Shown in pieces: positions 7,402 through 20,001 of a stretch of 64,000 nucleotides of DNA. The stretch lies in assembly GCF_000427095.1 (NCBI RefSeq), contig NC_021487.1:496001-560000 (forward strand). Direction: 5' to 3'. Each line of letters opens with the position of its first letter. Within the stretch, counting starts at the first letter, position 1. The position numbers and the translations under genes are program-made. Source of the stretch: Chthonomonas calidirosea T49. Lineage in GTDB: Bacteria; Armatimonadota; Chthonomonadetes; Chthonomonadales; Chthonomonadaceae. Below the pieces are notes generated by a model that saw only the letters and a program-made list of their open reading frames with translations, did no database searches and was not told the origin of the DNA.

Positions 7402-10400
7402 ATGGACAATCTGCGTTTGGAGGAGGGACAGATCCTCACCGGCTCGCTCTTCAAAGAGCCCATGCGGGTAGTGACCGCCCGCGCGACAGGATCCGACGTC
7501 TGGGAGGTCGGACTGGTTGGCACGCAGTCCGAGCAGTTCCGCTTGGTGTCCCTTACTCAGCGCGACCTCGAAAACCTCACCATTGAGGGCACAAAGCCCA
7601 CGTATCGAGGAGATGGCCACCTCCTTCGCCTCGGTCTACAAGCGTACTCCTTAGGAATCGCCTACGAGTACGATCCCTATTTCGGCCTCTCTATCACTCG
7701 GGTAGACCCGTTGCCGCATCAGCTCGAGGCCGTCTACGAATACCTCCTCAAGCTGCCCAGAGTTCGGTTCTTGCTCGCCGACGACGCCGGCGCCGGCAAG
7801 ACCATTATGGCCGGTCTCTTGATTCGAGAACTCGAACTGCGTGGCCTTGTCGAGCGCATCCTCATCGTCTGCCCCGCCAACCTCACCTTCCAATGGCAGC
7901 GCGAGCTCAAGGAGAAGTTCGACCAGACGTTCATCGTCCTCAAGGGCAGCAACATCCGCTACCAGTACGGGATTAACCAGTGGCTGGAGCAGAATCGAGT
8001 CATCACCTCGCTCGACCTTGCCAAGCGAGAAGAGATCCTCAAAGGGTTGCGGCAAGTCCATTGGGATCTGGTGGTGGTAGACGAAGCCCATCGCATGAGC
8101 GCCACCGACTCCGATCACAAGACCGATCGTTACAAGCTGGGCGAGCTGTTACGCGACACGTCGGATCACCTGCTTTTGCTGACGGCAACGCCGCACAAGG
8201 GCGACCCGGAGAACTTTAGACTCTTCCTTCAGCTTCTCGACGCAGATGTCTACGCGGATGTCAGGTCCGTCCGAGCCGCCATGGAGCGTGGTCGCGCACC
8301 CTTCTACCTCCGTCGCACCAAAGAGGCGATGGTCTACTTTCCTGAGTCCCGCCAAGACGGCACAGGCACATGGGAAGCAAAGAAGATCTTCACGAAGCGC
8401 ATCCCCTACACGGTGCAGTTCGAGATCGAAGGGCAGGAGGACGAGCTCTACCACGCCGTCACCCGCTTCGTGAAACAGCAGAGCAAAAAGGCGGCAAGCC
8501 TGGACAGGGATCCACGCGCTCGGGCGGTGGGCTTTTTGATGTCCCTCTACCAACGGCGGCTGGCCTCGAGCACCTACGCGATGCGGCGCTCCCTCGAGAA
8601 CCGCGTGAGACGTCTTGAAGAGGGCTTGGAGAGAGCGCAGGCTCTTTTCGGTCAGGCTCCCCCAGATCTTCCCGACCCAGACGAGCAGCAGGAGATGGAG
8701 GAGAGCGAGCGCGAGCGCTTCGAGGAGATGCTGCAGGGCTTCACCCTCGCGAGCAATGCCGAGCAAATCCAGGAAGAGATCCAGGAGCTCAAGTGCCTCG
8801 CAAGTCAAGCCAAGGCGGTCGAGGACTCCGGCACCGAAGCCAAACTCTCTAAGCTCAAGCAGCTTCTCGACGAGGAAGGCTTCTTTAAGGATCCCGAAAA
8901 GCGTCTCATCATTTTCACGGAGTTCAAGGACACGCTCGATTACCTAATGGAACAGCTGCAGTCTTGGAACTTTCGTGTCGGCTGCATTCATGGGGGCATG
9001 CCGCCGGGCTCGCGAGACGAGCCGGGGACGCGCCTCTATGCCGAGCAGCAGTTTCGAGAGGGCGCCATTCAGGTGCTCGTCGCCACCGAAGCGGCCGGTG
9101 AGGGCATTAACCTGCAGGTCTGCAATACGCTCTTCAACTACGACATCCCATGGAACCCGAACCGCCTTGAGCAGCGCATGGGCCGCATCCATCGCTACGG
9201 TCAGCGCAAAGACTGCCTTATCTTTAACTTCGTGGCCACAAACACCATCGAGGGTCGCGTGTTGAAGCGGCTTCTGGAGAAGCTCCAGGAGATCCGTAAC
9301 GCGCTCGACGACGACGCCGTCTTCAACGTGGTTGGAGAGATCCTGCCTGCAGCGCACGTGGAGCGGGTGCTGCGCGACTACTACGCCGAGCGTATAGGCC
9401 CTGAAGACCTCGCAGATCGCCTCCTCCAGGATGTGGACGAACGTCATTTCCGCGAGATCTGCCAAAACGCTCTCGAAGGGCTAGCCGTGAAGAAACTCAA
9501 CCTAGAGATGCTGAAAGAGCGCCGAGCGCAGGCCAAAGAGCGACGCCTGGTGCCCGAGACCATCGCGCGATTCATTCAGGAGGCGGCTCAGATCGAGCCA
9601 AGATTCCCCCTCAAACCCGTTACCCACCTTCCCTACACCTTTGACCCGGGCAGCACTCCGCCGGGGCTGCACCGCTATGAGCGCGATCCGGATTGGAAAC
9701 TTCCCGCCCTGGCCAACAAGTACCCTCGCTTCTCTACCGACAGGGAGACGGCCGACACGAAAAACTTGGAGTGGGTGACGCCTGGCCATCCGCTTTTCGA
9801 GGCGCTTCGGCGGAACGCCTATACGCGGGCCCTCAAAGAGTTCAGAACGGGAGCGACCTTCTACTCCCTGCAGCATAACGCGCCTGCCCGGATCGACTTT
9901 TACCGAGCCCGTGTGGTAGACGGGCTTGGGCAGATTGTCCACGAGCGTCTTTTCGCGGTGGAGATCTCAACCGACCGGGAGCCGCGCCTCCGAGAGCCCC
10001 AAATACTTGGGAACTTCACGCCGGCGGAGCCGCCGGACCCGCTGCCAGCGATCGCGAACGCTCCCGAAGAGACAGAATGGCTTTACGAGCATGTGCTGAA
10101 GTCCTTCCTCGAAGAGACCAGCAAGGAGCGACGCGCGGAAGTCGACCGGATTGAAGAGCATGTCGAACTCTCGTTCAAGGCGCTTATTCAACGGGCGGAT
10201 ATGGACGTTGGTCAGGCACAGGATGCTGCAGAACGCGGCGAGCCGGGAGCGTCAGGCCGCCTTACCATGGCATGGAACCGGCAGACGGAGCTGATTGAGC
10301 GTCGGAACCGCCGTCAGGATGAGCTAAAACAGCAGCGTGCTCTCTCCATCCAAGGGGTTGAACGGCTCGCCAGCGTACTGGTGCTGCCGCATCCCGATCG

Positions 10401-10848
10401 CGCCGCGCCCGAGGTGCAGCGGCTCCTGGCGAATCCGGAGACCGAGGCCATCGCCATGGAAGTCGTCATGGCGTATGAACGCGCTCAAGGTCGGGAGGTT
10501 GAAGACGTCCATGAGCAGAACCTCGGCTATGACATCAAAAGCCTTGATCGGAACTCCGGCGAGTTGCGGCTCATCGAGATCAAGGGATTGGCCGGCGCCA
10601 CCGGGACGATCCTGCTCACTCCCAACGAACGCCGCGTCGCCGAAGACCGGCGCGACTGTTACTGGCTCTACATTGTCACGAACTGCGCCACAGAGCCCAA
10701 GCTTCAGGAGCCGATCAAAGACCCTGCTCGCCTCAACTGGCACGAGGTCACGAAGGTGGCGCACTACTCTCTTTCGGTGGATGCGCTCACCCAGCCGATG
10801 CAGGTGCGAGAGAGTTCGACGCCCTATGGAGAGGAGGAACAAGACTAA
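7402..10848 (+). CDS. SNF2/DEAH helicase with C-terminal DUF3883 domain (defence)
   Basis: An 1,148-residue superfamily-2 DNA translocase of the SNF2 type. Walker A is GAGKT at 130-134, the DEAH box is at 227-230, the LTATPHKGD motif III follows, and the helicase-C motif QRMGRIHRYGQ is at about 591-601. A long acidic helical insert separates the two lobes. The C-terminal 110 residues match the DUF3883 pattern: GYDI with D1044, then LIEIKG with E1059 and K1061, the spacing of a PD-(D/E)XK nuclease core. The layout resembles DrmD-like helicases of DISARM and the helicase of helicase-methylase-ATPase systems. First gene of the five-gene locus; 147 nt separate it from the RadA-like gene. Likely role: translocation along or sensing of invading DNA. 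The nuclease activity is inferred. Confidence 0.88.
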   Translation: MDNLRLEEGQILTGSLFKEPMRVVTARATGSDVWEVGLVGTQSEQFRLVSLTQRDLENLTIEGTKPTYRGDGHLLRLGLQAYSLGIAYEYDPYFGLSITRVDPLPHQLEAVYEYLLKLPRVRFLLADDAGAGKTIMAGLLIRELELRGLVERILIVCPANLTFQWQRELKEKFDQTFIVLKGSNIRYQYGINQWLEQNRVITSLDLAKREEILKGLRQVHWDLVVVDEAHRMSATDSDHKTDRYKLGELLRDTSDHLLLLTATPHKGDPENFRLFLQLLDADVYADVRSVRAAMERGRAPFYLRRTKEAMVYFPESRQDGTGTWEAKKIFTKRIPYTVQFEIEGQEDELYHAVTRFVKQQSKKAASLDRDPRARAVGFLMSLYQRRLASSTYAMRRSLENRVRRLEEGLERAQALFGQAPPDLPDPDEQQEMEESERERFEEMLQGFTLASNAEQIQEEIQELKCLASQAKAVEDSGTEAKLSKLKQLLDEEGFFKDPEKRLIIFTEFKDTLDYLMEQLQSWNFRVGCIHGGMPPGSRDEPGTRLYAEQQFREGAIQVLVATEAAGEGINLQVCNTLFNYDIPWNPNRLEQRMGRIHRYGQRKDCLIFNFVATNTIEGRVLKRLLEKLQEIRNALDDDAVFNVVGEILPAAHVERVLRDYYAERIGPEDLADRLLQDVDERHFREICQNALEGLAVKKLNLEMLKERRAQAKERRLVPETIARFIQEAAQIEPRFPLKPVTHLPYTFDPGSTPPGLHRYERDPDWKLPALANKYPRFSTDRETADTKNLEWVTPGHPLFEALRRNAYTRALKEFRTGATFYSLQHNAPARIDFYRARVVDGLGQIVHERLFAVEISTDREPRLREPQILGNFTPAEPPDPLPAIANAPEETEWLYEHVLKSFLEETSKERRAEVDRIEEHVELSFKALIQRADMDVGQAQDAAERGEPGASGRLTMAWNRQTELIERRNRRQDELKQQRALSIQGVERLASVLVLPHPDRAAPEVQRLLANPETEAIAMEVVMAYERAQGREVEDVHEQNLGYDIKSLDRNSGELRLIEIKGLAGATGTILLTPNERRVAEDRRDCYWLYIVTNCATEPKLQEPIKDPARLNWHEVTKVAHYSLSVDALTQPMQVRESSTPYGEEEQD

Positions 10849-10995
10849 GATGTTATCCTCTTGTCTCCTCATGAGGTCACTGGAGCGCGCATCCATTGCC
10901 TTTCATCGACTCGTGATGGTGCATCGCCGTTCCGAAGCGTCGGAAGAGTGCAATAAAAATACGTAGGAACTACGCCTTTCTTTGGGAGGAGCATC

Positions 10996-12273
10996 ATGCC
11001 GAGAATTGAAGATATTGCAGAGAAGGGACATGAACTTATCCCCGTTCCATCGCTACCTTGGTTGGGCCGCGCGATCGCTCCCGGTTTCACTCGTGGGGGT
11101 GTCTACCTTCTGGCAGGAGAACCTGGCATCGGCAAGACGACACTGGCCATGCAGGTGCTCGGCGATTTTGCGATGCAGGGCATCCGGGTGCTCTTCCTAA
11201 CCACCGAACAAGGCCTCGGTGACCTTAAACGCGCCATTCTACGTATTCACGGAGACGCAAACGGCGATCTGCCGCAGCCGATACGAGAGAACTTCTTTCT
11301 TGATGACTCGATCGACGACATCGACGCGCTTCCGCGATTTCTCGCCAGACGGGTGCTCACGGAGGGCGAGCCCTATCACGACGTTCAGGCCATTGTTGTG
11401 GACTCGGTGCAAGGCAGGGGGTTGGCGTCAACAGCTTCTCAAAAATATCGGGCGCTTTATGAATTCGCCGAAAATGCCAAGGCGCAGGGTCTGGTCTCGA
11501 TCCTGATCGGGCACGTTACCAAAAAGGGGCAGATCGCCGGCCCCAAAGATCTTGAGCACAACGTTGATTGCATCATGTACATTCGACGAGCGTTCCGTCT
11601 TCGCCCCTTCTTCGTGCCCAAAAACCGATTTGGGCCGGCCGTTCTCGATCCGCTCGTTCTCATGATGGACAACCGCGGTCGGCTCGTAGAATCCCCCCAT
11701 CGAGCGGCGAAAAGCGCCGCCGTGTTCGGCTATGCGGGCATCGGAGAGGATTTGGCCGAAGGTCAAGCCTCTGTGACTCTTCCGCGCTACGGGTCTCGAC
11801 CGGAGCTCAACGCGCCGTTCTTGCCGTCGAAGAAGGTCAAGCAGCTCCTCAGCGTTCTCAGCACCATAAAGGAGGTCGATCTAACCGATCTCTCTTATGA
11901 GATCAACTGCTACGTGCCCCGTCAGCAGCGCTACCGGGAGGAGCTGGATCTGCCGATAGCGGTCGCCCTGCTGAGTTCCTACCTGCAACGCCCCGTGCCG
12001 GAGGCCGCGCTGTTTGTTGGGGAGCTGGATCTCACGCGCCGGATCCGTCGGCCCGAAAACAAGTATCTCGCCGCCCTGGCCAAGCTCTTGACCGACCCGC
12101 AAAAGGGAAGGATCAAGAGGCTCTATATCGCGGAAGAGTGCGCTAGTGAGCTGGGTAAATTGCGGCCGAACAAAGACGAACCACCGGTCGCCGAATCGGT
12201 CGAGATCGTCCCCGTTTCCGACCTGGAGCGCCTGCTGAAGACGCTCTGGCCAGACCTTTTTGTGGAGGATTGA
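10996..12273 (+). CDS. RadA/Sms-like ATPase lacking the zinc finger, in the defence locus
   Basis: A 425-residue RecA-fold ATPase clearly of the RadA (Sms) family. Walker A is GEPGIGKT at 41-48, Walker B is AIVVDSVQ near 132-139, the stretch IGHVTKKGQIAGPKDLEH matches RadA, and the RadA signature KNRFG is at 209-213. The last 130 residues fit the Lon-protease-like P domain (LDLPIAVALLSS; FVGELDLTRRIRRP). The N-terminal four-cysteine zinc finger of ordinary RadA is missing: the protein starts directly before the RecA fold. Start chosen from GGGAGGAG 5 nt upstream. It ends 3 nt before the HNH-like gene. Housekeeping RadA moves branched DNA in recombination; here it is probably a specialised defence paralogue. 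The chromosomal radA is not in this window. Confidence 0.88.
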   Translation: MPRIEDIAEKGHELIPVPSLPWLGRAIAPGFTRGGVYLLAGEPGIGKTTLAMQVLGDFAMQGIRVLFLTTEQGLGDLKRAILRIHGDANGDLPQPIRENFFLDDSIDDIDALPRFLARRVLTEGEPYHDVQAIVVDSVQGRGLASTASQKYRALYEFAENAKAQGLVSILIGHVTKKGQIAGPKDLEHNVDCIMYIRRAFRLRPFFVPKNRFGPAVLDPLVLMMDNRGRLVESPHRAAKSAAVFGYAGIGEDLAEGQASVTLPRYGSRPELNAPFLPSKKVKQLLSVLSTIKEVDLTDLSYEINCYVPRQQRYREELDLPIAVALLSSYLQRPVPEAALFVGELDLTRRIRRPENKYLAALAKLLTDPQKGRIKRLYIAEECASELGKLRPNKDEPPVAESVEIVPVSDLERLLKTLWPDLFVED

Positions 12274-12276
12274 CAG

Positions 12277-12771
12277 ATGCCATCCAAAGCCGTGCCAGAA
12301 ATCGTTGAAGACTACATTCTCTACTACTATGCCAAGCTCGTCATCGCCGCCTCCGCGGGCGAGGGAGGCAACTACCGATTCATTATGGATCGGTATAAGA
12401 AGCTGAAGAGCGGCGAGATCAAAATGTCGGACTACGACAGGGAGATCCAAAAAGAGGCGCAGCAGCCCGGCATCTGTGCGTTCTGCCAAAGGCAGGGGCA
12501 GACAGTGCCCGTTGAGGTGATACCTCGCCGGCTGGGAGGGCCTGTCGGCGTCCAAAACCTTGTTCACGCGTGCAGCAACTGCGCCAAATCCAAGGGCGAC
12601 AAGGATCTCCTCACCTGGTGGTGTGACGAGCTCGGACGGGACAAGGACGAGCTGCCCCGGATTCCAGCGGGCCTGTTTCTTAAGATGGCCCACGAACGTC
12701 ACCAGATCGCCTTTACGCTCCATCAACGGTGCACCAACATTCGCGAGATTTGGGAAGGGGCCCAGCCGTGA
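12277..12771 (+). CDS. HNH-like zinc protein with degenerate catalytic site
   Basis: A 164-residue protein with the frame of an HNH-family zinc fold: CAFC at 67-70, CSNC at 99-102, and LGGPVGVQNLVHAC between them, followed by KSKGDKDLLTWW. The four cysteines that hold structural zinc are kept. The first catalytic His expected in the (D/E)H-I-I-P motif is missing (V79-E80-V81-I82-P83), and the CN of the last motif reads CA. A long helical N-terminal part precedes the fold. It is probably not a standard active nuclease; a DNA-binding or regulatory zinc module is possible. Start from the GGAGG site before 12277. Its stop overlaps the methylase start (GTGA), so the two are translationally coupled. 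Confidence 0.72.
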   Translation: MPSKAVPEIVEDYILYYYAKLVIAASAGEGGNYRFIMDRYKKLKSGEIKMSDYDREIQKEAQQPGICAFCQRQGQTVPVEVIPRRLGGPVGVQNLVHACSNCAKSKGDKDLLTWWCDELGRDKDELPRIPAGLFLKMAHERHQIAFTLHQRCTNIREIWEGAQP

Positions 12772-15764
12772 TTCCTAAAGGCTGCAAGCGATTGGCCGAG
12801 GTGGATTTCCCGATCGCGGAGGTTTCGAAGCAAGCGGCGCGGGAAAAGTCGATCCGACACGGACATCCCTCAACGCTGCACCTATGGTGGGCGCGGCGAC
12901 CACTGGCATCGTGCCGGGCGGTACTGCTTGGACTGCTCTTCCCCGATCCGTGCGATCCGCTCTGTCCGGGAGATTTCAAAGCGAAAGCGCGCGAACTGCT
13001 GCCGAAGGTGGGTTGCGGCAGTGGCGAGAGCGACGAGGCGTTGCGGCGAGGGCTTCTCAAGTTCATCGCCGACTTCGCCAACTGGGATCTCGCCACCAAC
13101 CAGACCTACCTTGAGGTCTCCAGGGCGCTGGTGCAGGCGGCCTATCCGGAGGAACCGCCGCTCGTTGTGGATCCCTTTGCCGGCGGGGGCTCGATCCCGC
13201 TCGAGGCGCTACGGCTCGGATGCGAAACGTTCGCCAGCGATCTCAACCCGGTTGCCTGCCTAATCCTCAAGGTCATGCTCGAAGTCATCCCGCGGCATGG
13301 GCCGAAGCTGGCCGAGGAGCTGCGCCGCGTGGGCGCGGAGATCAAGCGCCAGGCGGAGATGGAGTTGGCGGAGCTCTACCCGAAAGATCCGGATGGCGCC
13401 ACGCCCATCGCCTATCTTTGGGCGCGCACGGTGCGCTGCGAATCGCCCAACTGCGGCGCGGAGATTCCGCTCATGCGCTCGTTCTGGCTCTGCAAAAAGC
13501 CGAACCGAAAGCGGGCTCTTCGGTATCGGGTGGAGAGGGCATGGGGAAAGCCGCCGGAGGTCGTCTTTGAGGTCTTCGAGCCGGCGAGCGAGAGAGAGGT
13601 GCCCCCAGGCACCGTGAGCCGTGCGCGAGCGACCTGTCTCTGCTGCGGCATGGTGCTTCCACCCGAGCGGGTGCGAGCGCAACTGGTCGCGCAGCGCGGC
13701 GGCGGGGATGTCGTCTTCGATGATAAGGGCCGGCGCATCGGCGGGGCGCGGCTGCTCGCCGTTGTGACGCTCAAGCCCGGCGAGACGGGACGACACTACC
13801 GCCTCCCGACGGAGCGCGACTACGCAGCCGTGTACCGCGCGCAGGAACGCCTCGCGAAGCTGCTCGAGGAGTGGGAGCGCGGCGGGAAGCAGGGGCTATG
13901 CCCGGTGCCCGATGAGCCGCTGCCGCTAATGAGCGGGACCTTCAACGTCCCGATTTACGGGATGAACCGCTGGGGCGACCTCTTCACGGCGCGGCAGAAG
14001 GTAGCGCTGGTGACGCTGGCGCGGCTGGTGCGTGAGCGGCCGGCGAGCGAGGACGGCGCGGTGCGCGAGGAAATGGCGCTGGTGGTGAATCGGCTCGCGG
14101 ACGGGAATTCGTCACTGACTAGGTGGCAGAATGGCCCTGAGAAAATCAGCAACAACTATTCTCGCCAAGCCTTGCCAATCGTTTGGGATTTTGCTGAGGC
14201 TTGCATTTTCGCGGACGCGACTCGAAGCCTCGCAAGTATGTTTGAATGGGTTGCAGAATATGCTCGCGCCCAGTGCGGCTTTCACCCTGGCCAAGTCCAG
14301 CCCGCCGATGCCGCCGAGCATCCGCTGCCCGACGAGACGGCGCATGTCTGGTTTACCGACCCGCCGTACTACTTCGCGGTTCCCTACGCCGACCTCTCCG
14401 ACTTCTTCTTCGTCTGGCTCAAGCGCGCCCTGCCAGGGCATCCGCTCCTGCGCGACCCGTTCGATCCCCAGAATCCGCTCACACCCAAGGCGCGCGAGGT
14501 CTGCGAGATGAAGCACTGGAATCCCGATCGTTACGCGGATAAGGACAAAGCCTTCTTCGAGGAAGGCATGCGCCGCGCCTTCGCGGAAGGCCGCCGCGTG
14601 TTGCGGGAGGATGGCGTCGCCTCCGTGGTCTTCGCCCACAAGACCACCGAGGGGTGGGAGGCCCTGCTTTCCGGGCTCATCAAAGGCGGCTGGACGATCA
14701 CCGGCTCCTGGCCCATCGCCACCGAGATGGCCTCGCGCCTGCGTGCTCGCGAGTCCGCCGCCCTCGCCACGAGCGTCCATCTCATCTGCCGCCCACGGCC
14801 CGAAGATGCTCCGGTGGGCGACTGGGCGGATGTGCTGCGGGAGCTGCCCAAGCGCGTTGGAGACTGGATGGAGCGGCTCCAGGCCGAAGGCATCCGCGGC
14901 GCCGATCTGGTGTTTGCCTGCATCGGGCCGGCGCTCGAGATCTTCAGCCGCTACCGCAAGGTCGAGACCGCCGAGGGGCGCGAGGTGAAACTGGCCGCGT
15001 ATCTGGAAAAAGTCTGGGAGGTGGTCGGGCGCACGGCGCTCGAGAACGTCCTCGGCACGGAGGAAGCCAAAGCGCGAAACGGGGCCGCGGGAGCGCTGGA
15101 GGAGGATGCCCGACTCACGGCGCTCTTCCTCTGGACGCTGCAAACCACCGAAGGCCAGAACGGCGGAGACGAAAACCCTACCGAAGACGATGAGGAGGAG
15201 ACGGAGGAGGACGAGGAATCGCCTTCCAAGGGAGCCACGAGGGGCTACAGCCTGGTCTTCGACGTGGTGCGCCGCTTCGCCCAGCCCTTAGGGATCGACC
15301 TCCCTAGCTGGGAAAGGCGGATCATCGAGACCAACAAAGGCGTCGTCCGCTTGCTGGCCGTCAGCGAGCGTGCCGGACAGCTCTTCGCAGACGACGGCGC
15401 AATGGCCTCCGCCGAGTGGATCGCTGAGGCTCCGGCGAAGACCTCCCAGCTGACGCTCTTCTCCGAGCTGGAGGGAGAACGCGCGCCCAAGGTAGGTCGC
15501 CGAGATGGGAGGCGCAAGGCCCTCATGACCCCAGGCGACGTGGAATTCCCGCAGGATCGGGCGGCGACCACCCTCGACCGCCTCCATGCGGCCATGCTCC
15601 TGCAGGCGTGGGGCCAGACGAGCGCCCTGCGCGCGCTTCTGAAAGCCGAGCAGGAACGCGGGCCGGACTTTTTGCGCCTGGCCAACGCGCTCTCGGCCCT
15701 CTATCCGAAAGGCAGCGAGGAGAAGCGCCTGCTGGATGCGATGCTCTTGGCGGTGCCGCGATGA
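12768..15764 (+). CDS. DUF1156 DNA methylase (adenine-specific type, defence)
   Basis: A 998-residue DNA methyltransferase of the DUF1156/COG1743 family. The family N-terminus (AEVDFPIAEVSKQAAREKS, then HPSTLHLWWARRPL) is intact. The AdoMet-binding motif DPFAGGGSI begins at D135, and the catalytic motif DPPY is at 531-534. Two cysteine pairs (CESPNCG; CLCCG) suggest a zinc-bound insert between them. The GTG at 12768, overlapping the HNH-like stop as GTGA, is the best start: the upstream GGAAGGGG site fits and family similarity begins at once. An upstream ATG at 12729 lies inside the HNH-like gene. The expected role is to mark host DNA as self. Coding GC is well above the window average, with a lower-GC patch at about 14105-14270. 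Confidence 0.93.
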   Translation: MIPKGCKRLAEVDFPIAEVSKQAAREKSIRHGHPSTLHLWWARRPLASCRAVLLGLLFPDPCDPLCPGDFKAKARELLPKVGCGSGESDEALRRGLLKFIADFANWDLATNQTYLEVSRALVQAAYPEEPPLVVDPFAGGGSIPLEALRLGCETFASDLNPVACLILKVMLEVIPRHGPKLAEELRRVGAEIKRQAEMELAELYPKDPDGATPIAYLWARTVRCESPNCGAEIPLMRSFWLCKKPNRKRALRYRVERAWGKPPEVVFEVFEPASEREVPPGTVSRARATCLCCGMVLPPERVRAQLVAQRGGGDVVFDDKGRRIGGARLLAVVTLKPGETGRHYRLPTERDYAAVYRAQERLAKLLEEWERGGKQGLCPVPDEPLPLMSGTFNVPIYGMNRWGDLFTARQKVALVTLARLVRERPASEDGAVREEMALVVNRLADGNSSLTRWQNGPEKISNNYSRQALPIVWDFAEACIFADATRSLASMFEWVAEYARAQCGFHPGQVQPADAAEHPLPDETAHVWFTDPPYYFAVPYADLSDFFFVWLKRALPGHPLLRDPFDPQNPLTPKAREVCEMKHWNPDRYADKDKAFFEEGMRRAFAEGRRVLREDGVASVVFAHKTTEGWEALLSGLIKGGWTITGSWPIATEMASRLRARESAALATSVHLICRPRPEDAPVGDWADVLRELPKRVGDWMERLQAEGIRGADLVFACIGPALEIFSRYRKVETAEGREVKLAAYLEKVWEVVGRTALENVLGTEEAKARNGAAGALEEDARLTALFLWTLQTTEGQNGGDENPTEDDEEETEEDEESPSKGATRGYSLVFDVVRRFAQPLGIDLPSWERRIIETNKGVVRLLAVSERAGQLFADDGAMASAEWIAEAPAKTSQLTLFSELEGERAPKVGRRDGRRKALMTPGDVEFPQDRAATTLDRLHAAMLLQAWGQTSALRALLKAEQERGPDFLRLANALSALYPKGSEEKRLLDAMLLAVPR

Positions 15765-15926
15765 TGGCCACTCGCACGGAGACGTGGTACGGACCGATGG
15801 CTCTCGATAGCGGATTCTCTTGCTGCCATAAAGCTTGCGCAGCCGCTGCCTGCGCAAACCGCGCACAACGGAAGAGATCGGCAGCCGAGCCGTTCGCCCA
15901 TAGATAAAGACCGTAGGAGGAACGTG

Positions 15927-18740
15927 ATGGAAGCTTGGTATAAAGTTGCCACACCGCGAGAGGAAGTTCGGGAAGGAAGATCCTTCAACCCAGATGAGTT
16001 TGCCATTGCCCTGGAACAGGTCGTGGCCGGCACGGCGCCCGAAGACTATCGGGATCCTGCGCAGTTCTTCGCACGCACCTACTTCACGCGCGCGCTGCGC
16101 GAGCATGTGGGCATGGTCTTGCGCAGGCTATCGGGCCGAACCGACAACACGGCGCCGGTGTTGACCTTGATCACCCAGTTCGGCGGCGGCAAGACCCACA
16201 CGCTAACCACTCTCTACCACCTTGTCACGAGCGGCGAGAGGGCCGCCAGCTACCCAGGGGTTGGTGACCTCTTACGCGAATCGGGCCTCACGTCGGTTCC
16301 GAAGGCGCGAGTGGGCGTCTTCGTGGGAAACGCCTGGGACCCACAGGAAGGCCGGGAGACCCCGTGGATCGACCTTGCCCGCCAGCTCGCGGGCCACAAG
16401 GGCGTCGCAGCGCTTGGGACTTCCGCAAGGACGGTCCCGCCGGGAACCGAATCCCTCGCGCGCGTCTTCCAGGCGGCCGAGGCGCCGGTGCTCATCCTCT
16501 TCGACGAGGTGCTGAACTTCCTCAACCGGCATCGCGGCATGGCGGAAGCCTTCCATGCCTTCATTCAGAATCTCACCGTGGCTATGACGGGAACAACCCA
16601 CGGCGCGGCGGTGATCAGCCTCCCGCGCAGTCAGGTCGAGATGACCGACTGGGACATGCTGTGGCAGGACAGGATCACCAAGGTGGTTCGCCGCGTGTCC
16701 AAAGACCTCATCGTCAACGACGAGACGGCGATCAGCGAGGTCGTCCGGCGGCGGCTCTTCGAGCACCTGGGAAACGAGAACGTGCGGAAGAACGTGGCGA
16801 GGGCCTTCGCCGACTGGTGCTTCGAGCGACGGGCGCAACTCCCGCGGGAGTGGACGGCTGTGGACACCGTGGCGTCGGAAGCCAAGGCGAAGGAGATACT
16901 CCGCGGGCGGTTTGAGGCGTGCTATCCCTTTCACCCTGCCACCCTCTCGGTCTTTCAGCGGAAGTGGCAAGCTCTCCCGCAGTATCAGCAGACGCGTGGA
17001 ACGCTGGCGATGCTGGCTCAGTGGATCGCTTGGGCGTATCGCGACGGCTTCACGACGGCTCGGCGAGAACCGCTGATCACGCTTGGGTCGGCTCCACTTC
17101 ACGACATGGGGTTTCGCAGCACGATCTTCGGTCAACTGGGAGAATCTCGGCTTGCCGCGGCCATCGAGGCGGACATCGCCGGGCAGCATTCGCATGCGCG
17201 GGCGCTAGACGCCGACACGCAAGGGCTGCTGCGCGACATCCACCGCCGGGTGGGAACGGCGATCCTCTTCGAATCCTCAGGCGGGCAGACGGATAAGGTG
17301 GCTCATTTGCCGGAGCTGCGCTTCGCCCTCGGCGAGCCAGGCATTGACACGACGTCTGTGGACAATGCGGCCTTTGCCCTGGAAGCCCAGTCCTACTTCA
17401 TCCGCCGAATGGGCTCGGACGGGTTCAAGATCAGCTACCAGCCCACGCTGAAGAAGGTGGTCAACGACCGGCGCGCCTCTCTGGATGAAGAGGAAGAGAT
17501 CAAACCCGCCATTCGCAAGTTCGTCGAGAGCGAGTTCCGCCGTGGGGCGAGCATTCCCTTGGTTCTATTCCCTCGCGATGGGGCCGAGGTTCCCGACTCA
17601 CCTAGGCTCACGCTTATTGTCACCGATCCGGAGGCGGAGTGGAACGGAAAGAACGCGTTTCGAGAGCAGATCGCCGAATGGACGAAATACAGGGGCAAGC
17701 TGCCGCGCCTCTACCCTGGAGCGCTGGTGTGGTGTATCAAAAAGCCAGGCCGTGAGCTGCGAGAGAGGGTCGAGCTGTGGCTTGCGTGGAAGAAGGTCGC
17801 CCAGGAGTTGGCCAACGGCACGCTTGGCGGGGAGTTCGACCGAGCGGAGCGGGACGATATCCACTTGAAGGTGAAGGATGCCGAAGAGGCCGCCAGGAAC
17901 GAGGTCTGGGGAGGCTATCGGTTCGTAGTGATCGCCGACTACGAGGAGAACGATGGCCTCAAGGTGTTCGACCTCGGATCCGGTTACTCCAGCAACAATG
18001 AGACCTTGTGCAGCCGAGTCATCGACGCCCTCAAGTCGGCTGGGGAGCTCAACTTTTCATTCGAAGCAGGATATCTCGATCGGAAGTGGCCGCCCGCGCT
18101 CAAGGAAGCGGGAGCATGGCCGCTCGCTAGCTTACGGCAGAGCTTCCTCAACGGCTCGCTTACACGCTTGCCCGATCCCGACACGACCCTACGCACGAAG
18201 ATCGTTGAGTTCGTGGAGAGGGGCGACTTCGGCCTCGCTTTTGGGCAGAGACCCGATGGAACCTACGAGCGAGTCTGGTTTCAGGAGCGGATTTCACCCG
18301 ACGAAGTGGCTTTCGAGCCGGATGTGTTCCTCCTCACTAAAACCAAAGCGCAGTCGTTGACGTCGGAGGTTTCGCTAACGGCCTCCCTTGTGCTGGAACC
18401 GCAGGCAGCCCCTCCTAAAGACAGTCTTAAAGACAGTCTTAAAGACAGTCTTACAGACCGTCCAGACGTCAGCATCGCGGCCAAGCCGAGCATGGAGATT
18501 GCCCCGGAGGTTAAGACGAAAACCCTGCGTCTGGTGGGTGCCCTTCCGCCCGAAGTGTGGAGCCGTTTCGGGGTGAAGGTCTTGCCGAAGCTTCAGCCGG
18601 GCTCCGAGCTCAAGCTCCGCATTGACCTCTCCGTAAAGGTCAGCCGCGACCTAGCGGACAGCTTGTTGTCGGAGCTGCGGCAGACCCTCGCCGATCTCGC
18701 CCTGGCGGACACGGTGGAAATCCAAGAGTCTGACCTGTAG
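15927..18740 (+). CDS. DUF499 AAA-type ATPase (defence)
   Basis: A 937-residue P-loop ATPase of the DUF499/COG1483 family that typically accompanies DUF1156 methylases. It has the family N-terminus (EEVREGRSFNPDEFAIAL), Walker A FGGGKTHTL with K89, and Walker B VLILFDEV with D193. The middle part holds family motifs such as RGTLAMLAQWI. The C-terminal third carries a linker of three KDSL repeats, then a domain of about 80 residues. GTG (15924) and ATG (15927) both follow TAGGAGG; ATG has the better spacing. A 162-nt gap from the methylase contains an 8-bp inverted repeat (TTGCGCAG/CTGCGCAA, 15835-15857), so separate control is possible. The mechanism in immunity is unknown to me. Confidence 0.92.
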   Translation: MEAWYKVATPREEVREGRSFNPDEFAIALEQVVAGTAPEDYRDPAQFFARTYFTRALREHVGMVLRRLSGRTDNTAPVLTLITQFGGGKTHTLTTLYHLVTSGERAASYPGVGDLLRESGLTSVPKARVGVFVGNAWDPQEGRETPWIDLARQLAGHKGVAALGTSARTVPPGTESLARVFQAAEAPVLILFDEVLNFLNRHRGMAEAFHAFIQNLTVAMTGTTHGAAVISLPRSQVEMTDWDMLWQDRITKVVRRVSKDLIVNDETAISEVVRRRLFEHLGNENVRKNVARAFADWCFERRAQLPREWTAVDTVASEAKAKEILRGRFEACYPFHPATLSVFQRKWQALPQYQQTRGTLAMLAQWIAWAYRDGFTTARREPLITLGSAPLHDMGFRSTIFGQLGESRLAAAIEADIAGQHSHARALDADTQGLLRDIHRRVGTAILFESSGGQTDKVAHLPELRFALGEPGIDTTSVDNAAFALEAQSYFIRRMGSDGFKISYQPTLKKVVNDRRASLDEEEEIKPAIRKFVESEFRRGASIPLVLFPRDGAEVPDSPRLTLIVTDPEAEWNGKNAFREQIAEWTKYRGKLPRLYPGALVWCIKKPGRELRERVELWLAWKKVAQELANGTLGGEFDRAERDDIHLKVKDAEEAARNEVWGGYRFVVIADYEENDGLKVFDLGSGYSSNNETLCSRVIDALKSAGELNFSFEAGYLDRKWPPALKEAGAWPLASLRQSFLNGSLTRLPDPDTTLRTKIVEFVERGDFGLAFGQRPDGTYERVWFQERISPDEVAFEPDVFLLTKTKAQSLTSEVSLTASLVLEPQAAPPKDSLKDSLKDSLTDRPDVSIAAKPSMEIAPEVKTKTLRLVGALPPEVWSRFGVKVLPKLQPGSELKLRIDLSVKVSRDLADSLLSELRQTLADLALADTVEIQESDL
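18416..18451 (+). repeat. Three perfect 12-bp tandem repeats inside the DUF499 gene
   Basis: The unit TAAAGACAGTCT occurs three times in a row, followed by a degenerate fourth copy. It encodes three KDSL units in a linker after the family core. As 12 is a multiple of 3, gain or loss of a unit keeps the frame. Confidence 0.9.
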
Positions 18741-18855: not shown

Positions 18856-20001
18856 CTAATTCCCCGTATCGGACATATCCGACGTGGAACTGGTCTGAAT
18901 GATCACGGTCTGACTCGCCGAATCGTACTGCACCGGCTGCCCCGTGACGCTCTCAAAGAAACGCATCGGCACGTACAATGTGCCGTTCAAAACCTGAGCC
19001 GGAGCTTCCAGTAACTTGCGCTCGCCATCGTTCACAATGGCGACGCGGCTGCCCACGGCCAGACTCACGGTGCGCCCCGTCGCATCCACATGCAACACGC
19101 GACCGTCGAACTTAAAAGGAATGCCCGCCGCTTCCAACACCGGACGTACCGGCACCAGAATGGCCTTTCCATCCCGCACAGGCGTTGCATTCGAGGTGAA
19201 ATCTACGTTCCGGTTGCCAATGAGCACGCCGATGTTCGCTGCAGACGTGTAGGTGTGGGACGTGTTCGTGATCGGAGTGACCTCGCGCTCAACCGCTGGC
19301 CGTGCCCGGCTATCGCCCTCCTCATGAAAACGATAGCCGCTCTGCTCATCCATGTTCAGAGCCACTTCACGGTCTAATCGGACTCCCAACTCCGTTCCCG
19401 ATTTCAAAACCACGTCACGTGCGGTGGCGTGAGATTTCTGCAAGGAGCCGAACAGATAGCCCAAGCCGCCCCCGATGAGAAGATCCTCAAAGGTATGCTT
19501 GGTAAGCAGGCCGACGAGCAGCCCGGCTCCAGCCCCGTAGCCAACATAGGTCCAGCGCTTATCCGTGTGCCCTGGGGTGGCGATGAGACGACCATCGGAG
19601 GTCTTCTCCACGCTCTTATTGTCTAGGCCGATGAGCGCACCGTCAATGAGATAGGTGCGGCCATCTGGCAGACGAATGCGCCGAAAGCTCAATGCGAGCA
19701 TTCCCGGCTGATTCCCCTCATGCCGACGTACATCATCGACGTAACCGTCAATGCGGGTGCCAGGTGGCAAACCGTAGTCCACCCCGTTGTCTGTAACCAC
19801 CGTGGCGGTGAAAAGATCGCCCTTCACCGCTGTCGCGGAGCTAAGCGTGGTGTTGAGCTTAACGGGTATGACGGAGTTCGCGGGCAGCACCACGCGACCG
19901 CCCGAATCGGCCAGAGCCGGCGCCAAACCGGCAAGCCCAACCGCCAGAACCCCGCAGAGCAACCCTTTCTGAAATAGGTTTGCCGCAAAACTGTTTTTCA
20001 T
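18856..20001 (-). CDS. Exported protein with copper amine oxidase-like (stalk) domain
   Basis: A 381-residue secreted protein. A signal peptide is clear (hydrophobic GLLCGVLAVGLAGLAPALA, cleavage after ALA near residue 31). The N-terminal part is beta-rich (VILPANSVIPVKL-type) and contains two glycine-rich hydrophobic stretches (YGAGAGLLVGLL; IGGGLGYLFG). The C-terminal 110 residues match the copper amine oxidase N-domain, PF07833 (ILVPVRPVLEAAGIPF, then LYVPMRFFESVTG). That domain usually serves as a cell-surface stalk or peptidoglycan-associated module, not as an oxidase. The ATG at 20001 has AGGAGGGTC upstream. It converges on the defence locus and seems to be a single-gene unit. Confidence 0.75.
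   Translation of the reverse strand: MKNSFAANLFQKGLLCGVLAVGLAGLAPALADSGGRVVLPANSVIPVKLNTTLSSATAVKGDLFTATVVTDNGVDYGLPPGTRIDGYVDDVRRHEGNQPGMLALSFRRIRLPDGRTYLIDGALIGLDNKSVEKTSDGRLIATPGHTDKRWTYVGYGAGAGLLVGLLTKHTFEDLLIGGGLGYLFGSLQKSHATARDVVLKSGTELGVRLDREVALNMDEQSGYRFHEEGDSRARPAVEREVTPITNTSHTYTSAANIGVLIGNRNVDFTSNATPVRDGKAILVPVRPVLEAAGIPFKFDGRVLHVDATGRTVSLAVGSRVAIVNDGERKLLEAPAQVLNGTLYVPMRFFESVTGQPVQYDSASQTVIIQTSSTSDMSDTGN

Follow-up and report, generated by a model that had tools for sequence, protein, structure and literature searches.

A protein resembling the recombination motor RadA, and lacking its zinc finger, is encoded in a 64,000-nucleotide stretch of Chthonomonas calidirosea T49 DNA (the window). 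Is it a housekeeping RadA whose finger has been overlooked, or a paralogue that has been recruited into defence, as an earlier reading made from the sequence alone had proposed? We refer to the protein as RadL; the features of its locus are collected in Table 1.

Table 1. Features of the RadL locus, in window coordinates
Feature	Position	Strand	Details
HmaA, SNF2-type helicase with C-terminal NOV_C domain	7402..10848	+	PADLOC HmaA 4.8e-176; Pfam
hmaA-RadL gap	10849..10995	+	No finger; ribosome site GGGAGGAG ahead of RadL ATG
RadL, RadA-derived ATPase without C4 zinc finger	10996..12273	+	425 aa; RecA domain ~1-235, Lon-like domain ~240-420
RadL Walker A, GEPGIGKTT, residues 41-49	11116..11142	+	Read in translation
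RadL KNRFG motif, residues 209-213	11620..11634	+	Read in translation
HNH-fold partner, 164 aa	12277..12771	+	Pfam HNH_5 1.1e-4; CxxC pairs C67/C70 and C99/C102
HmaB, DUF1156 adenine methylase	12729..15764	+	PADLOC HmaB 9.7e-119
HmaC, DUF499 AAA+ ATPase	15924..18740	+	PADLOC HmaC 1.5e-94; Pfam DUF499

The RadL protein and its missing zinc finger

The RadL open reading frame is real and complete. Its top match among curated families is RadA/Sms (TIGR00416, 1.7e-30 over residues 24-353), with a score, 106 bits, that falls well short of the family's 403-bit cut-off, and solved RadA structures are matched at ~1e-22. The Pfam and fold matches are to ATPases of the KaiC/RadA/RecA/DnaB type, and none of PADLOC, Pfam and NCBIfam lists a RadL family. 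An AF2 monomer model (pLDDT 88.5) has the RadA fold, aligning 363 residues with S. pneumoniae RadA at Z = 29.4; the rmsd is 18, the relative placement of the two domains being different. The alignment extends over residues 11-418, and thus the Lon-like domain is present. The motifs (Walker B is VVDS), the model and the upstream sequence together bear out the description of a protein that has kept the Walker A and B, KNRFG and Lon-like elements of RadA and has no C4 finger.

Could the finger have been missed by assigning the wrong start? Upstream of the ATG the RadL frame is open for 13 codons only, and there is no paired CxxC...CxxC motif in any frame within 400 bp. The ATG is preceded by a ribosome site, and an 'MP(K/R)I' start is common to the RadL relatives. 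Taken together, these observations rule out an overlooked finger. RadL is also not the sole RadA of its genome; when the genome was searched (one contig, 3,437,861 bases) a complete RadA with a finger of the form CQNCG...CPEC was found at C1:1435829-1436884. The sequence-only reading had named two ways in which it might fail, namely that this was the only radA of the genome or that a finger-bearing start lay in the gap upstream. The second RadA and the finger-free gap exclude both.

The same pattern is seen throughout the family. The N-terminal C4 finger is absent from all seven RadL proteins and present in each of 100 other RadA homologs examined. A normal RadA is found beside RadL in the three cellular genomes checked (G000, G291 and G292), in the last two as a further match, at RadA level, of 458-465 aa.

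The RadL family and the residues lost from RadA

RadL has at least seven members, from several phyla and one virus-like contig. The relatives are 52-74% identical to the window protein; the identity with any RadA is 34% or lower. In a tree with 43 RadAs, a comparison that had been proposed along with structure prediction, the seven RadL proteins form one clade on a long stem with 100% SH-aLRT support. The tree sets RadL apart as a lineage of its own, which either descends from RadA or is its sister.

The family is rare. Seeds aside, each phylum that was searched had at most two RadL genomes among up to several hundred (2 of ~344, 0 of ~346, 1 of 350 and none of 132). Among the matches listed in a scan of genome contigs, two were RadL proteins of 52% identity, in a Deltaproteobacteria MAG (L094) and an Aminicenantes MAG (L095), after which the identity falls to 34% or less. 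Whole-genome searches added RadL in G351, G303 and G1296; the G1296 protein, from the phylum of an Anaerolineae MAG (L166), is 74% identical to that of the window. Viral contigs, searched with a RadA-wide pattern, gave one relative of 55% identity (L082). The virus collection gave no match with a single RadL protein; with alignments it gave the L082 contig and no other. A search of the window's own phylum with P0001 gave RadA-level matches only, apart from the window itself, as did plasmids and phages (below 32% identity; those of the listed matches that were read are housekeeping RadA). An Aeromonas candidate (L080) was rejected because it has a finger.

We mapped the residues of the seven RadL proteins on the numbering of S. 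pneumoniae RadA. The equivalents of K101, E124, D170, K251 and R253, i.e., the Walker A lysine, catalytic glutamate, Walker B aspartate, lysine piston and arginine finger, are kept in all seven. The Mg-binding E125 is replaced by Q, R133 by A or V, and R191, which contacts the second strand, by Y or F, again in every member. The bridge between R301 and E239 couples the Lon ring of RadA to its ATPase, and a RadA R301A variant uses ATP futilely, binds DNA weakly and loses function (PMC11612176). This bridge is gone from all seven RadL proteins, with R301 changed to G and E239 deleted. As for the finger, in S. pneumoniae RadA it is required for the partnership with RecA and not for helicase activity (PMC5512693), and in E. 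coli RadA it is required for DNA binding (PMC4786428). Since the core ATPase residues are kept while those of coupling are lost, we predict that RadL forms a ring with ATPase activity and is not a branch-migration motor of the RadA type.

The HNH-fold partner and the settings of RadL

In six of the seven loci the gene 3′ of RadL encodes a zinc protein of 152-165 aa with an HNH fold, at a distance of 3, 3, 20, 24, 26 or 27 bp (3 bp in the window). L082 has no HNH gene downstream of RadL, and a search of viral contigs for the partner found none. The pairwise identities of the RadL and HNH proteins are correlated (r = 0.97, Mantel 2/720), indicating that the two have been inherited together. These comparisons show a pair that is transmitted as a unit and that neighbours unrelated defence loci in different phyla. 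The sequence-only reading was silent on the HNH-like gene; the conserved partner, together with the cassette slot described below, is the key addition of the present analysis.

The partner has departed from the standard HNH motif. Three relatives that are not beside RadL (L081, L198 and L199) all keep DH...N...CN, whereas none of the six RadL-linked proteins is canonical at all of the DH...N...C..(N/H) positions. In the window and L187 the DH pair is replaced by VE or ME, in the others by VH or TH, and the CN position is CA, CC or CH; the window partner has VE and CA. From general knowledge of HNH enzymes, these changes would be expected to impair cleavage by the partner. The L187 protein has histidine at the last position of the motif; histidine is permitted there in HNH motifs, so this partner may still be active. 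The model of the window partner is poor (pLDDT 59), and a fold search with this unreliable model returned nothing at E ≤ 0.001.

The operon surrounding the pair in the window is an Hma system, with HmaA, HmaB and HmaC all present. Hma is a Type-1 BR system, DUF499-centred and related to BREX (PMC12839542, PMC8565338). RadL and its partner are located between hmaA and hmaB; the listed HmaB start overlaps the HNH gene, and a start slightly downstream is likely. Two side observations were made further along. Near its C-terminus HmaC has a linker encoded by in-frame 12-nt repeats (TCTTAAAGACAG, KDSL; window 18413-18460). Beyond it, ARAGORN calls an 85-nt tRNA-Pro at 19870-19954 on the minus strand, inside the ORF 18856-20001; either the call is doubtful or the start of the ORF is wrong.

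Among the loci examined, this genome is the only one with the pair at the hmaA-hmaB junction. RadL is missing from this junction in the further Hma regions retrieved for the phylum, and in the two closest (L062 and L066) hmaA and hmaB are contiguous. Elsewhere the gap holds genes of other defence systems: a CBASS cyclase with a phospholipase effector (L039, 5201-7733), a cyclase (L049), HEC-07 (L058), an OLD-like ATPase with HEC-09 (L048), PDC-M48B-like proteins (L047) and Schlafen-type proteins (L033 and L060). Thus the RadL-HNH pair lies in a slot that accommodates defence cassettes. In this phylum the junction often contains genes of other defence systems, and an ORF of at least 150 aa was present there in about half of the Hma loci read.

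Restriction or defence genes are found near RadL in all seven loci, and they belong to differing systems. The pair lies with an SbcCD-like pair and AbiE in L094, with a type I R subunit and PDC-S14 in L095, with OLD/AriA-like and LmuB-like genes and a type II methylase in L184, and with a NucS_C-type nuclease/PDC-S02 and PDC-S01 in L183. The L187 pair comes after a helicase gene that is 28% identical to HmaA, and on the virus-like contig L082 RadL is near a type IIG-like methylase. Three further observations were made in these neighbourhoods. On L082 (6294-7953), a DUF4411 protein and one of HTH-ImmA/IrrE type are encoded between the methylase and RadL. In L094 (3-1787) the contig end truncates a protein of no clear family, at least 594 aa long, which lies 15 bp upstream of RadL. 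At ~62-117 of L095, ~500 bp ahead of RadL, there is a sequence that by eye resembles the 3′ end of a tRNA, for which ARAGORN made no call; it is a possible site of island integration.

The sequence-only reading had suggested that a translocase with a Lon-like domain beside a methylase might be a repeated theme in immunity. A DNA methylase does occur within a few kb of RadL in three of the seven loci (HmaB in the window, and those of L184 and L082). In the form proposed the idea finds no support: RadL of the window follows the helicase gene hmaA, and the methylase comes after the HNH-like gene; RadL is absent from other methylase systems of this type; and the steadiest neighbour of RadL is the HNH-like gene.

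Function of the RadL-HNH pair and comparison with known systems

The results suggest that RadL and its partner constitute an undescribed two-gene antiviral module, and their genomic context makes a role in defence likely. We place at roughly 0.55 the probability that the pair is a mobile module that is itself antiviral, a reading that draws its defence element from context and its evidence from seven loci, one of which (L082) has no HNH gene. Defence genes cluster, and so neighbourhood alone is no proof that each member defends. Of the original proposal, the finger-less paralogue, its defence setting and its distinction from housekeeping RadA have all stood, and the role in defence is argued from the setting.

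If the pair is antiviral, RadL would assemble into a RadA-like ring and hydrolyse ATP, and would no longer perform the RecA-coupled branch migration of RadA. The HNH-derived partner would take over the engagement of DNA or target from the lost finger, and the pair would act on invading DNA. A more specific version is offered tentatively: the finger-less ring ATPase may take its zinc module in trans from a degraded HNH protein, giving a new type of two-gene antiviral system in which a housekeeping recombination motor would have been converted for immunity and provided with a separate recognition subunit. Given the poor model of the partner, this idea comes from sequence only.

The pair might instead serve the restriction-like system beside it, here Hma, as a helper motor and adaptor working with the helicase, methylase and DUF499 ATPase. 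Its place inside the Hma operon of the window and behind an HmaA-like helicase gene in L187 would fit such a role, as would the methylases of L184 and L082 and the type I R subunit of L095. Yet the systems that neighbour RadL are unrelated to one another, the remaining Hma loci retrieved for this phylum have no RadL between hmaA and hmaB (contiguous in the closest, L062 and L066), and elsewhere that slot contains genes of other defence systems. We consider an accessory role doubtful. It is unlikely that RadL serves a mobile island in repair or recombination, whether to mend cut DNA or for the element's own recombination, and is no defence effector; the RadA core and fold are retained and one copy is on a virus-like contig, but the residues that couple ATP use to DNA are lost in all seven proteins, the cell already has a RadA, and every context includes restriction or defence genes. 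Homing elements often contain HNH proteins and the pair is mobile and patchy, but a selfish homing-type insertion that landed in the Hma operon by chance is very improbable, given the degraded catalytic positions in all six linked proteins, the operon-like gene order with its 3-bp gap in the window, and hmaA and hmaB left at full length.

How does the proposed antiviral module compare with known systems? RadL shares with bacterial RadA/Sms (TIGR00416; PDB 5LKM, 8RXC) the RecA-type ATPase, KNRFG motif, Lon-like domain, catalytic core and fold. It differs from them in the absence of the C4 finger, the changes at E125, R133, R191, R301 and E239, its own clade, the pairing with an HNH-like gene, and a patchy distribution in defence islands. 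If our reading is correct, immunity has recruited RadA, a recombination motor that is nearly universal, and the lost residues can be tested individually. RadL and the HNH-like gene fall outside the described core of Hma/Type-1 BR (PMC8565338, PMC12839542), and 'RadA' is absent from the main texts of both papers. In the open-access literature we found no paper linking a RadA paralogue and an HNH protein in defence. The hmaA-hmaB junction is a place where defence cassettes may be found by position.

The likeness to BrxL of BREX that had been pointed out earlier extends to the general design, in which a Lon-like domain that lacks the protease dyad comes after a motor domain. The motors differ; that of BrxL is an MCM AAA+ preceded by N-terminal DNA-binding domains (PMC12839542), while that of RadL is of the RecA/KaiC/DnaB type. 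With Septu, in which the ATPase PtuA is combined with the HNH protein PtuB, the pair shares a two-gene ATPase and HNH design. PtuA gave no match for RadL at the cut-off used, and PtuB was matched only weakly (8.4e-5 for the partner of L094). PtuA is an ABC/OLD-type ATPase, whereas RadL is of RadA type with a Lon-like domain, and the HNH proteins linked to RadL lack the canonical residues. RadL-HNH is thus a candidate module with the ATPase and HNH design of Septu, built on a different motor.
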